Shown one piece after another: positions 58,725-63,695 of a DNA stretch of 64,000 bases; within the stretch, counting starts at the first letter, position 1; each line of letters begins with the position of its first letter. Origin of the DNA: Clostridia bacterium. Its GTDB lineage: Bacteria; Bacillota; Clostridia; UBA1381; UBA9506. The DNA is taken from contig JAFQAZ010000024.1 in assembly GCA_017416855.1 (NCBI GenBank), positions 62,001 through 126,000 of the forward strand. The letters are read 5' to 3'. The notes beneath the pieces are model-generated. The model did no database searches, was not told the origin of the DNA, and was given only the letters and a program-made list of their open reading frames with translations. Position numbers and translations under genes: made by a program.

Positions 58725-60143
58725 TTATTTTAATTTTTCTTCTAACAGAGTTTTAATCATAGCGGGGTCGCCTGCGCCCTTTAATTCCTTCATACAAGCA
58801 CCGAAGAGAGCCTGCAGGGCTTTCACCTTACCACCTTTAAAGTCTGCAACAGACTGGGGATTTTCGGCGATTGCCTTATCAATCACCGCTTCAATGGCAG
58901 AGGCGTCAAATTTCTTATCCAGGCCTTGTTCTTTGCAGTAAGCAATCGGGTCAACATCCTGCTCAACAACGGCGATAAGTATCTTTTTGCCCGCGTTACG
59001 GTTAATATCACCATTATCTACCATTCTAATCACGGCATAGAGCTTTTCAGCGGTGATAACAAGGTCATTTAAGGTTTTGCCGTCTTTACGCAAAATACCG
59101 GCACAGTCGGTTAAAATCCAGGCAGCACCATCCTTGGGGTTAGCACCCATAGCCACAATGTCATCTAACAGCTTGCTGATTTTTTGGTTGGAAATCAGCA
59201 TATCGATTTCCTTGTCGGAAATACCGGCCAGGCGATAATCTTCAGCCTTTTCATCCACAGCGGCAGGCTTGTTGGCCTTGATTTCTTCCAGCCATTCATC
59301 ATCAATGATAATGGGCATTAAGTTGGCATCAGGGAAGTAGCGGTAGTCTGCTTCAGTTTCTTTGTTGCGCATGGCCATAGTCTTGCCGCTTGCATCATCA
59401 TAACGTCTGGTTTCCTGCACCAGTTCTTCAGTTTCAAATTCCAGAGCATCCATATGACGCTGCGCCTCGTAACGGATGGCTTTTTCAATGGCTTCAAAGG
59501 AGCTCATATTCTTGATTTCGGTACGAACACCGAATTCTTCACTACCTTCAGGACGAACAGAAATGTTAACATCGCAACGCATTGCGCCTTCTTCACATTC
59601 TGAAATACCACCGGAGCGGAACATAGATTTCAGCTTGTTTAAGTAGGTTACAACCTCTTCAGCACTTCTGAAATCAGGTTGGGTAACAATTTCAATGAGG
59701 GGCACGCTGGTACGGTTAAAGTCTACATAAGAATATTTACCGCCGTGAACCAGTTTGCCGGCATCTTCTTCCATATGAATCTGCTTAATGCGGATATCAC
59801 GGGTGCCTGCGGAGGTTTTTAAGGTCACACAACCGTTGGTGCAAATGGGGTGGTTCAGCTGTGTAATCTGATAAGCGCAAGGCAGGTCGGGGTAGTAGTA
59901 ATTCTTTTTATCGAAGGTGGTGTAGCGATTGATTTCACAGTTTAACATAAGTCCTGCTGTTACTGCCAGTTCCACAACGTGTTTGTTCATAATAGGGAGC
60001 ATACCGGGCATACCGCTGCAGGCAGGGCACACACAGTCATTGGGCTCGTTGGCAGCAGAATGACCGCCGCAGGAACAGAATATTTTAGATTCGGTAGAAA
60101 GCTCTACGTGAGTCTCTAAACCGATAACCAATTCATAATTCAT
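58725..60143 (-). CDS. gatB: Asp-tRNA(Asn)/Glu-tRNA(Gln) amidotransferase subunit B
   Basis: 472 residues. Kinase/amidase cradle start YELVIGLETHVELSTESKIFCSCGG with the zinc-type CxC and CVCPACSGMPG cysteines, KKNYYYPDLPCAYQITQ, EEDAGKLVHG, RCDVNISVRPEG, and a C-terminal YqeY-like tail. Phosphorylates the mischarged Asp/Glu and adds ammonia. The kinase and amination residues look intact, unlike those of its GatA partner. Starts 2 bases after the gatA stop with AGGGTGA. Confidence 0.95.
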   Translation of the reverse strand: MNYELVIGLETHVELSTESKIFCSCGGHSAANEPNDCVCPACSGMPGMLPIMNKHVVELAVTAGLMLNCEINRYTTFDKKNYYYPDLPCAYQITQLNHPICTNGCVTLKTSAGTRDIRIKQIHMEEDAGKLVHGGKYSYVDFNRTSVPLIEIVTQPDFRSAEEVVTYLNKLKSMFRSGGISECEEGAMRCDVNISVRPEGSEEFGVRTEIKNMSSFEAIEKAIRYEAQRHMDALEFETEELVQETRRYDDASGKTMAMRNKETEADYRYFPDANLMPIIIDDEWLEEIKANKPAAVDEKAEDYRLAGISDKEIDMLISNQKISKLLDDIVAMGANPKDGAAWILTDCAGILRKDGKTLNDLVITAEKLYAVIRMVDNGDINRNAGKKILIAVVEQDVDPIAYCKEQGLDKKFDASAIEAVIDKAIAENPQSVADFKGGKVKALQALFGACMKELKGAGDPAMIKTLLEEKLK

Positions 60144-60145
60144 GA

Positions 60146-61324
60146 TTATTCACCCTTCCTTTCAACGCTGTCTGCAAGGCTAAGCAGCAGACCTTCGGAA
60201 AAATGCTTGCCCATAAGCTGTACACCGCCGGAAATTAAAGCCGGAACGCCGATTAAGTTTGCCAGCGCGGTGAAGATGCTTTCATTAAACACTTTGCCGA
60301 AAGCTTCGTGAATGTCATAAGCCTCGTAAGCAGTCTGGCTAGCGGCAGGCATTAAAACAGCATCATACTGTTTCATCAGCTCTTCAAACTTTTCAGCCAT
60401 CACGCGACGAACCTTTAAGGATTTATCGTAGCAGGCCTCATAACGATTTTTGGAGAGTACATCAGAACCATACATAATCACGGCCTTGGTTAAGAAGTTA
60501 AAGCCTTCAGTACGGGAGTTTACATATAACTCATCAATGTTTTTATATTCCTTGGCCCGATGACCGAATTTTACACCGTCATAACGAGAAATGTTGTTAC
60601 AGGTTTCAGCAGTCATCAAAATCTGCCAGGCTGTGTTCACAACAGCAAACACATCAAATGAAATTTCTTCTATGGTTACACCCTGGGCACGGAGAGCGTC
60701 AGCAAAAGCATTGATGCGTTTTTTTGTTTCATCATCTGCTTTTTCAACCAGTTCTTTGATAATGGCAACCTTTTTGCCGGAAACAGAGTGGAAAGAGTAG
60801 TCGTAGCTTTCGTTTTTCAGGCTAGTGCCGTCCTTTTCATCGTGGCCGGCAATCACATCCATAATCTCTTTTACGCCGGATGCATTCTGTGCATACACGC
60901 CGATTTGTTCACCGGAAGCAGCACAGGAAATCACGCCGTAACGGGAAACTGTACCATAGGTGGGTTTTAAAAAGTCAATGCCTGAGATAGCAGCGGCACG
61001 TCTTGCGGCACCGTTCATATCCACAGCCAAAGCGGCTTTTACTTCGCCGGAAGCAACTGCTTCAGCAGCGGCGCCCTTTAATGTGCCTTCTGCTTCAGCA
61101 CCGTAAGAGAATTCACCCAAAAGGTCAAGACCGAATTCACCCACATTGGTTTTGCCGGCAATTTTATAGCCTTTGTTCTCTAAACGGGTTACGGCTTCAG
61201 CGCTAAAGAGAGGTTTAAAGCCTGTGAGCATTTTAGAACCTGCTGAAGCCTCTGCATCTTTTACTAAAATCATATCGTCAACGGCGATGTTACCGTCAGC
61301 GATTTTTGTTTTATAATAATTCAT
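60146..61324 (-). CDS. gatA: GatA-like subunit without catalytic serines (predicted inactive glutaminase)
   Basis: 392 residues against about 485 for normal GatA; roughly 55-60 N-terminal residues are missing and the region between the catalytic Lys and the Ser loop is shorter. Homology is clear: GKTNVGEF, LKPTYGTVSRYGVISCAASGEQIG, NISRYDGVKFGHRAKEY, LMPAASQTAYEAYDIHEAFG. Of the amidase Ser-cisSer-Lys triad, Lys22 (LVKDA) remains, but the GGSSGGS loop reads GTLKGAA (cis-Ser to Leu82) and DTGGSIR reads DMNGAAR (nucleophile Ser to Ala106). The usual Asp before IFT is Ser. It cannot release ammonia from glutamine by this mechanism, yet stays in the operon. Start ATG 61324 with GAGGTG. Confidence 0.85.
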   Translation of the reverse strand: MNYYKTKIADGNIAVDDMILVKDAEASAGSKMLTGFKPLFSAEAVTRLENKGYKIAGKTNVGEFGLDLLGEFSYGAEAEGTLKGAAAEAVASGEVKAALAVDMNGAARRAAAISGIDFLKPTYGTVSRYGVISCAASGEQIGVYAQNASGVKEIMDVIAGHDEKDGTSLKNESYDYSFHSVSGKKVAIIKELVEKADDETKKRINAFADALRAQGVTIEEISFDVFAVVNTAWQILMTAETCNNISRYDGVKFGHRAKEYKNIDELYVNSRTEGFNFLTKAVIMYGSDVLSKNRYEACYDKSLKVRRVMAEKFEELMKQYDAVLMPAASQTAYEAYDIHEAFGKVFNESIFTALANLIGVPALISGGVQLMGKHFSEGLLLSLADSVERKGE

Positions 61325-61334
61325 TGTTCGCACC

Positions 61335-63413
61335 TCACTTTACAAGTCTGGGCACCTGCCAGCTGTCTTCACTACGTTCAGGAGCACCTTCTAACAGGCT
61401 CTCACGGGTAAAGGGCTGGTGGCGGACATCTTCGCGCAACACGTTGGTCATAGGCATAACGTGAACCATGGGTTCAACACCTTCGGTATTCACGTCGTTT
61501 AAGAGTTTTTCACTTTCACTCATAGAAGTGAAAATATCCTGCACAACCTTTTCTTCATCATCAGTTAGTGCAATCTGATTCAGCTGCTGTGCATTGGAGA
61601 AGGTGGAACGCTTGCCGGCAGAGGTTTTTCCTTGGGTAACAGGGCCTGCGGCGCGCTGAGCCAAAACATTGGTGCTTCCTAACAGATGAACATCTTCAAG
61701 TTGCTGGTTGGTAACAAAGCTGGGTGCGCCTAACAATAAATCCTGAGCGTTGCCGTTTAAGGGGAAGGCAATAACATCCAGAATCTTTTCTTCGTCAGTT
61801 AAGAGCATTACCATACGGTCAATACCCGGTGCCATACCGGCATGAGGAGGTGCTCCGTACTGGAATGCTGTATACAAAGCATTGAACCTGCTCTTTAGTT
61901 CATTTTCGGAGTAACCGGCAATTTCAAAGGCCTTCTTCATAATGCTGATATCGTGGTTACGAACCGCACCGGAGGCAAGCTCAATACCGTTACCAACTAA
62001 GTCATACTGATAAGCAAGAACTTCGGTGGGGTCTTTGGTGAGCAACGCTTCCATACCGCCCTGAGGCATAGAGAAGGGGTTATGAGTGAAGATGGTTTCG
62101 CCGGTTTCTTCATCGTTTTCATACATGGGGAAGTCTACAACAAAGCAGAATTCAAATGCATCTTCATTAATTAAATCGAGCTGTTCCTTTTTAGCCAGCC
62201 ATGTACGGATTAAGCCGGCTTTTTTCTCTGTGTCGTTCTTTTTATCATCACAGATGAAGAACAGGGTTTCGCCCTCTTTTACACCGGTTAAGGTAATGAT
62301 TTCTTCTTTCTGTGCATCGCTTAAGAACTTGGCAATGGGGCCTGCAAACACACCCTCTTTTAAGGTGATGTAACCAAGACCGCCCAGACCAACCTCAGGA
62401 GAGGTTGCATATTTTAAGGAATCTTCAAAGAACTTTTTGGATTTACCCTGACAGCCGGCAACAATACCACGCACCGGCTTACCCTTAAAGGCAGGGAAGT
62501 CAACCCCTTCAAAGAAGGCAGTTAAATCGCAGATGAGCAAGGGGTTGCGGAGATCCGGCTTATCGGAGCCGTATGTCATCATGGCGTCGGCATAGGTAAT
62601 GCGACGGAAGGGCTTCGGTGTGATTTTCTTATCAGAGAAGGTTTTGAAGGTGTCGTAAATAACATCTTCGCACACATCTAAAACTTCTTCCTGTGTGGCA
62701 AATGCCATTTCAAAGTCTAACTGATAGAACTCACCGGGAGAACGGTCAGCACGGGCATCTTCGTCACGGAAGCAGGGGGCTATCTGAAAATATCTGTCAA
62801 AGCCGGACACCATCAAAAGCTGTTTGAACTGCTGAGGCGCCTGGGGCAGAGCATAGAACTTACCAGGATGCTTACGGCTGGGCACCAAAAAGTCTCTGGC
62901 ACCTTCCGGTGAAGAAGCTGTCAGAATGGGTGTCTGCATATCTAAAAAGCCTTTTTCCTCCATTTTGTTTCTTAAATGGCGGATAATCTGAGAACGCTTT
63001 ACCAGATTTTCATGGTTTTTGGGATTACGCAAATCCAGATAACGGTATTTTAAACGAAGTTCATCCTTGCTCAAGCGAGAGCCACGGACATCAAAGGGGA
63101 GTTTATTTAAACTCTTACCCAAAATATCGAGGCTATCAGCCACCAGTTCAACGGTACCGGTTTCGATTTTATCGTTTACGGTTTCAGGGTCGCGTTTGCT
63201 GACAACACCGCTGACAGAAATAACAGTTTCACGGTTAACCTCTTTCACTAAAGATTCATTGTGGATAACCACCTGGGTCACGCCGGTGTAATCACGAAGG
63301 TCAATAAAAATAACACCGCCGTGGTCACGGACAACATCCACCCAGCCAGCAAGCTGAACGGTTTTGCCAATGTGCTCATCACGTATGTCATTACAATATA
63401 GGGTTCTATACAT
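61335..63413 (-). CDS. aspS: Aspartyl-tRNA synthetase fused to GatC
   Basis: 692 residues. Bacterial-type AspRS: OB fold (GWVDVVRDHGGVIFIDLRDYTG), motif 2 FRDEDARADRSPGEFYQLDFEMAF, GAD insertion, motif 3 GMAPGIDRMVMLL. His31 in RDHGG is the residue seen in non-discriminating enzymes that also charge tRNA-Asn. From about residue 605, LTDDEEKVVQDIFTSMSE ... VEPMVHVMPMTNVLREDV is a GatC domain. The chain thus combines tRNA mischarging and the GatC clamp. Overlaps nothing; gatA begins 10 bases after its stop. Fusions of this type are known. Confidence 0.93.
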   Translation of the reverse strand: MYRTLYCNDIRDEHIGKTVQLAGWVDVVRDHGGVIFIDLRDYTGVTQVVIHNESLVKEVNRETVISVSGVVSKRDPETVNDKIETGTVELVADSLDILGKSLNKLPFDVRGSRLSKDELRLKYRYLDLRNPKNHENLVKRSQIIRHLRNKMEEKGFLDMQTPILTASSPEGARDFLVPSRKHPGKFYALPQAPQQFKQLLMVSGFDRYFQIAPCFRDEDARADRSPGEFYQLDFEMAFATQEEVLDVCEDVIYDTFKTFSDKKITPKPFRRITYADAMMTYGSDKPDLRNPLLICDLTAFFEGVDFPAFKGKPVRGIVAGCQGKSKKFFEDSLKYATSPEVGLGGLGYITLKEGVFAGPIAKFLSDAQKEEIITLTGVKEGETLFFICDDKKNDTEKKAGLIRTWLAKKEQLDLINEDAFEFCFVVDFPMYENDEETGETIFTHNPFSMPQGGMEALLTKDPTEVLAYQYDLVGNGIELASGAVRNHDISIMKKAFEIAGYSENELKSRFNALYTAFQYGAPPHAGMAPGIDRMVMLLTDEEKILDVIAFPLNGNAQDLLLGAPSFVTNQQLEDVHLLGSTNVLAQRAAGPVTQGKTSAGKRSTFSNAQQLNQIALTDDEEKVVQDIFTSMSESEKLLNDVNTEGVEPMVHVMPMTNVLREDVRHQPFTRESLLEGAPERSEDSWQVPRLVK

Positions 63414-63429
63414 GATATATTCCTCCTAC

Positions 63430-63665
63430 AATAATATACTAAAAAAATAAAAGTCCCGGAAATATATTTGCATATATTTCCGGGACGAGTAAACAAAACA
63501 TTTAACCCGCGGTGCCACCCGCATTGATGCTTAAAAAGCATCCGCTTTTCTATTCAATTAAAAAACATGGAGTGTTCCCAAACTTACTACTCATCTCAAA
63601 TGCGCTTTCAGTCCATGACGCATTCTCCCTTTCAGACTTTCCACAAAAGCCGAGTCTCCACTAAT
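63430..63665 (-). promoter_or_regulatory. T-box leader of aspS::gatC-gatA-gatB
   Basis: Minus strand: stem I closing pair TGGAG (63656-63660) / CTCCA (63568-63572); next to its 3' arm is GAAC (63574-63577), the likely specifier, holding overlapping GAA (Glu) and AAC (Asn). Stem III GATGC/GCATC follows, then T-box GGGTGGCACCGCGGG (63506-63520). The base after TGG is C, matching discriminator G73 of tRNA-Asn, -Asp and -Glu. The terminator is GTCCCGGAAATATAT / ATATATTTCCGGGAC (63453-63486) followed on the minus strand by a T-rich run. Confidence 0.9.
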
Positions 63666-63666
63666 C

Positions 63667-63695
63667 ATTATAGCAAACAAAGTTTTTATTGTCAA
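63667..63695 (-). promoter_or_regulatory. Consensus promoter of the aspS operon
   Basis: Minus strand TTGACA - 17 bases - TATAAT, perfect consensus, 6-7 bases before the T-box stem I. Confidence 0.85.

Follow-up and report, generated by a model that had tools for sequence, protein, structure and literature searches.

GatCAB is described as glutamine-dependent, and textbooks explain its architecture by the ammonia tunnel. One operon in the 64,000-nucleotide stretch of clostridial DNA analysed here (the window) does not fit this description easily: its GatA was predicted to be a pseudo-amidase that has lost both serines of the amidase signature. If such a complex still amidates tRNA, where does its ammonia come from?

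The altered GatA and its operon

The gene in question (60146–61324, minus strand) encodes 392 amino acids from an ATG; a GTG at 61333 is a possible alternative start. A profile search with Pfam Amidase gave 196 bits and places the protein in the amidase-signature fold, and TIGR00132 gave 276 bits, below its GatA equivalog cut-off of 481. The TIGR00132 alignment begins at profile position 57, so that about 56 N-terminal residues are missing, close to the 55–60 originally predicted; about 10 residues are also absent from a C-terminal loop in the alignment. Residue roles were taken from an alignment with solved GatA structures and canonical clostridial GatA. As had been predicted, the catalytic Lys is kept (Lys22, 61259–61261), while the cis-Ser position is occupied by Leu82 (61079–61081) and that of the nucleophile by Ala106 (61007–61009), leaving the Ser-cisSer-Lys set incomplete. 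Met103 stands at the Thr of DTGGS, and Ser349 corresponds, by our alignment, to D418 of yeast GatA, the Asp that recognises and binds the amide of glutamine (PMC4027206). Judged by these residues, the protein (pseudo-GatA, pGatA) lacks the catalytic set that defines GatA, and its complex would be a variant of GatCAB.

The fold itself seems little affected. AlphaFold gave a pLDDT of 55.5 with 11 close sequences and of 93.9 (pTM 0.93) with 100 sequences. The best structural match of the latter model is GatA 2df4_A (Z 50.5, 1.8 Å, 392 residues aligned), and further best matches are the GatA subunits of the Asn transamidosomes 3kfu and 4wj3. In the model, then, the GatA scaffold is retained, in line with the original prediction. 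Many columns invariant in canonical GatA hold other conserved residues in pGatA, which argues for remodelling rather than decay.

A conserved sigma-70-type promoter (63667–63695, minus strand; TTGACA 63690–63695, TATAAT 63667–63672) precedes the operon, which consists of a T-box leader, an AspRS-GatC fusion, pGatA and GatB, in this order. The fusion (61335–63413, minus strand, 692 aa) is a bacterial AspRS with His31 in the motif RDHGG. Its residues 604–691 (61341–61604, minus strand) form a GatC domain, identified by TIGR00135 (52.2 bits, cut-off 47.1), by Pfam GatC (residues 616–686 of 692) and by its position within an AspRS fusion near GatA and GatB. Thus, the operon expected to be an intact GatCAB operon does contain GatB and GatC, but GatC is the C-terminus of AspRS and the arrangement departs from a simple gatCAB. 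In bacterial-type AspRS, His at position 31 marks non-discriminating enzymes; it is present in the window and in 69 of 69 fused AspRS, the signature expected of a non-discriminating AspRS.

GatB (58725–60143, minus strand, 472 aa) scores 565 bits with the GatB equivalog model NF004012, whose cut-off is 338. Its kinase/transamidase residues are intact (E10, H12, E125, E126, D191, E209); together with N212, these residues of the Mg and ATP sites do not vary among 79 GatB of pseudo-operons and 37 other GatB. The tunnel residue Lys89, invariant in canonical GatB, is Cys in the window (59877–59879) and in 79/79 pseudo-operon GatB, and Asn in L209, a more distant relative. At the tunnel mouth of GatA, the Thr is replaced by Met, Val or Leu in pGatA. 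In H. pylori, mutation of GatB Lys89 or of GatA Thr149, which by our alignment we take to be the Thr of DTGGS, reportedly lowers kinase activity (work of Zhao et al. from 2012). Both tunnel residues have been lost along with the glutaminase.

The leader (63442–63661, minus strand) comprises a specifier AAC (63574–63576), an antiterminator with a UGGC box (63506–63520) and a terminator (63442–63486), and is conserved in relatives. It scores 51.7 bits (E 2e-9) with the Rfam T-box model, below the gathering score of 93, so standard annotation would miss it; L209 has an intact T-box of 119.8 bits. Since the Rfam placement in the window starts in the promoter, the specifier was read against L209 with the frame rule of PMC7778990. 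Ahead of the stem, L209 reads AAC-G-CUCC and the window AAC-A-CUCC, and the rule gives AAC, asparagine, as specifier. The antiterminator GGGUGGCACCGCGG and AAC-A-CUCC, both conserved, mark the leader as an Asn T-box. RNAalifold produced no convincing classical Stem I in the leader aptamer. tRNA-Asn has a G discriminator base, which the UGGC box fits.

The AAC specifier overlaps a GAA codon (GAAC), and a two-codon T-box with overlapping codons is known in Clostridium acetobutylicum (PMC4052509). Saad 2012 and 2013, as cited in PMC4206432 and PMC4052509, reportedly describe a T-box-controlled, working transamidation operon in that species. Compared by description, in both operons a T-box precedes the genes of a tRNA-dependent route to Asn, and both share the GAAC overlap; they differ in that the two citing texts mention no dead GatA.

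Conservation in relatives and the genome census

Across GTDB genomes, 165 loci with a pGatA relative were detected, nearly all in MAGs from the gut or rumen of herbivores, and the best 80 of the 165 were read. None of these 80 loci has Ser in the cis-Ser column, where 75 have Leu and 5 have Ile; the catalytic Lys is invariant (80/80). The nucleophile column (81 rows) holds Ala 52, Ser 25, Thr 3 and Phe 1 times. The description as pseudo-amidase therefore extends to all loci read; of the two predicted serine losses, that of the cis-Ser is invariant, but the nucleophile Ser survives in about one third of homologues. The same GatA state in 80 loci is neither a sequencing artefact nor chance.

The order AspRS-GatC, pGatA, GatB is constant in loci long enough to show neighbours. 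In a quick tree pGatA forms one clade with full SH-aLRT support; it includes L209, where the same operon has AspRS and GatC as separate genes. Median dN/dS is 0.148 for pGatA, 0.074 for GatB and 0.073 for AspRS-GatC, indicating purifying selection on the operon with about twofold less constraint on pGatA. These data bear directly on the view that the locus is a redundant GatCAB copy in ordinary decay, a pseudogene on its way out. It would account for the lost catalytic residues, and the window genome does hold an intact copy; yet full-length open frames in 80 loci of several families, dN/dS near 0.15, constant synteny and a single fully supported clade make it hardly credible, and for the pGatA clade the dN/dS values refute it.

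The gene fusion and order of the window recur in the AspRS-GatC fusion model NF009460 (PRK12820) and in the clostridial loci L206–L208 and L210, where the fusion is followed by an intact GatA, which falls outside the pGatA clade, and then by GatB. There GatA keeps GGSSGG and DTGGSIR, and AspRS is of Met type (RDMGG) where its N-terminus is present; NF009460 requires 1379 bits, and the window protein scores 457. The genomes with these four Met-type fusions also carry the pseudo-operon.

Among the families that adjoin the operon, the commonest is a divergent type I asparaginase-like gene, which lies beside it in 23 of 79 loci, in all orientations and with four arrangements (for example L121:8658-9713, L103, L107, L122 and L123); in 15 loci it lies right after gatB on the same strand. 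With GatD models the operon-linked protein reaches 81–82 bits (cut-offs 310–324) and is not a GatD equivalog. An apparent GatB-asparaginase fusion in L105 (834 aa) proved to be an artefact of a masked run of N. Another gene, of about 388 aa and resembling AlaX or the C-terminal part of AlaRS (alanyl-tRNA editing), lies behind the operon in 22 of the 79 loci and shares its strand each time (for example L121:9694-10872, L110, L113 and L115).

Elsewhere in the window genome, a separate operon encodes a second GatA with all catalytic residues and its own GatC and GatB. Besides the fusion, the class IIb synthetases comprise an AspRS of 595 aa and a LysRS (the latter assigned by length and score), and there is one GluRS; neither AsnRS, GlnRS nor a PF00710 asparaginase was found in this genome. 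As no GlnRS was found, the canonical GatCAB would then be needed for Gln-tRNA-Gln. The original prediction was to be given up if a second intact GatA existed, or if AsnRS and GlnRS made the complex dispensable and selection on the gene was relaxed: the intact GatA is there, so that amidation in this genome could do without the pseudo-complex, whereas neither synthetase was found and selection is not neutral. The dead GatA of this genome alone thus proves nothing, and the relatives decide. That ammonia must come from elsewhere, as predicted, is not forced in the window genome; relatives that yielded no AsnRS, and no tRNA amidotransferase besides the pseudo-complex, do suggest it strongly.

Among 57 distinct pGatA genomes, 32 have no canonical GatA, 24 have one, and the last has a fragment at a contig edge. 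The informative genomes are nearly all MAGs, in which each absence may be a gap; LysRS, however, is certain to be missing from just about 4 of 54 genomes, so assembly gaps do not explain the 32 of 57. In 17 of the 32 pGatA-only genomes, those with every PF00152 match listed, no AsnRS was found: all matches, classed by length and score, are AspRS, AspRS-GatC or LysRS. The other 15, with unlisted low-scoring matches or missing genes, were excluded from this count. GlnRS is present in 15 of the 17. In these genomes, at least 17 without another amidotransferase or AsnRS found, an essential step probably runs on ammonia from elsewhere.

Two candidate AsnRS were rejected. The synthetase of 444–449 aa beside the operon in G003/G004 is an archaeal-type AspRS (431 bits, cut-off 353), and reaches 203 bits with the AsnRS model, which requires 343; the PF00152 match in G019 (about 462–464 aa; L216:1352-2740, minus strand) reads as a LysRS-like paralogue. 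Archaeal-type AspRS of 444–449 aa occurs in a few genomes of the family (L121:2255-3589, L123:2251-3600, L218:717-2057, L056), and in two genomes lies directly upstream of the pseudo-operon.

Within the window's family, 17 genomes have canonical GatA and no GlnRS, and 3 have GlnRS and no canonical GatA. This mutual exclusion is confined to the family; in the wider census many genomes hold canonical GatA beside GlnRS. The simplest account assigns glutamine to canonical GatCAB, which a genome with GlnRS can afford to lose, and asparagine to the pseudo-complex, which stays. Family genomes without pGatA also have no AsnRS, and their only AspRS is of Leu type. Four genomes that are 93–97% complete (G001, G008, G013, G016) have one Leu-type AspRS and canonical GatA, with neither AsnRS nor pseudo-operon found, so their route to Asn-tRNA must use the Leu-type AspRS. 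Being the sole AspRS in such genomes, this enzyme may be non-discriminating, and since they must combine it with canonical GatCAB, the window genome may have two Asn-tRNA routes. Nine genomes from a genus of the same order (G080–G088) gave no GatA match at all.

Source of the ammonia

Read from the genes, the locus combines a dead glutaminase site, a retained fold, an intact GatB kinase site, changed tunnel residues, the fusion, the T-box and conservation of the whole. We consider it quite likely that these describe a GatC-tethered, Asn-controlled transamidosome making Asn-tRNA-Asn with ammonia that does not come from GatA. Covalently tied to the amidotransferase through GatC, AspRS would be part of a dedicated Asn-tRNA-Asn transamidosome, and uncharged tRNA-Asn would turn the operon on through the T-box. 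The His31-type AspRS would charge tRNA-Asn with Asp, and GatB would phosphorylate the Asp side chain and then amidate it. In this complex pGatA would keep GatB and GatC in place as a purely structural subunit, unable to hydrolyse glutamine, so that ammonia would have to enter from outside. Misacylation of tRNA-Asn, assembly of the complex and free ammonia as its probable donor are what we infer here. The most likely supply would be the free ammonium pool, the rumen and hindgut of the source animals being ammonia-rich; in some lineages the neighbouring asparaginase would perhaps raise ammonia locally and also yield Asp. Free ammonia is favoured because GatFAB accepts ammonium chloride in place of Gln as its amide donor, and one NTD truncation that lowered the glutaminase activity of GatFAB raised transamidation with ammonium chloride (PMC4027206). 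The donor could instead be a separate glutaminase.

Ammonia might also be delivered by a committed partner, the L-asparaginase-like protein or another stand-alone amidase docking on the complex, in the way that archaeal GatD joins GatE. Adjacency of the asparaginase-like gene is indeed commoner without canonical GatA (15/32) than with it (2/24; Fisher p 0.003, kinship ignored), and no other family neighbours the operon as often. Most loci have no copy nearby, however, and its absence from the window genome leaves it at most an accessory role; with scores so far from GatD as well, we regard a committed partner as possible though unlikely. A new non-Ser amidase site or ligand-sensing pocket in pGatA, still supplying or gating ammonia, has conserved candidates in Cys242-Asn243-Asn244, Trp233 and Cys298 of pGatA and Cys89 of GatB, and the replacement of the canonical set by a near-invariant one (C242, N243, W233, D67, K292) is more than decay would give. 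We nevertheless find it improbable: Cys134 and Cys298 are not kept in L209, whose GatB lacks Cys89, and we recognised no known hydrolase arrangement in pGatA. It is still a little harder to believe that the complex no longer amidates and is an AspRS with a vestigial scaffold for tRNA binding, Asn-tRNA being made by canonical GatCAB where present. Such an enzyme is at hand in the window genome and in 24 of 57, but the GatB kinase and Mg residues are invariant in 79/79, GatB is more constrained than pGatA, the T-box has an Asn specifier, and the 17 genomes discussed above have no canonical GatA or AsnRS that we could find.

Relation to known systems and significance

All four components are homologous to those of canonical GatCAB and AspRS, with the GatB active site and the GatA fold kept and the AspRS product as substrate; the differences are a GatA without glutaminase residues, Cys in place of GatB Lys89, and AspRS and GatC in one polypeptide. 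Archaeal GatDE likewise pairs a GatB-like kinase with an ammonia source other than GatA, of asparaginase fold, but the pseudo-operon has no GatD equivalog and its asparaginase neighbour is not universal. Ammonia-dependent NadE and AsnA are also amidating enzymes without glutaminase that use free ammonia, with folds unrelated to GatB and no dependence on tRNA. A survey of 490 gatABC genomes contained none without glutaminase, and of the families it lists only NAD synthetase has members that do without one (PMC3376133, Table 1). Our literature search for inactive GatA, mostly confined to openly accessible papers, returned nothing relevant, which does not prove novelty.

On balance, we lean towards the view that an AspRS-tethered family, widespread in gut Clostridia, gave up glutamine and turned GatA into a remodelled scaffold that perhaps senses ammonium or amide, with whole lineages making their Asn-tRNA-Asn from free ammonia. 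If true, a natural GatCAB family without glutaminase would mean that scaffold and glutaminase are separable, and would offer a clean system for testing the purpose of the tunnel and of GatA-GatB communication. In many gut bacteria, translation would also depend at one essential step directly on the ammonia around the cell.
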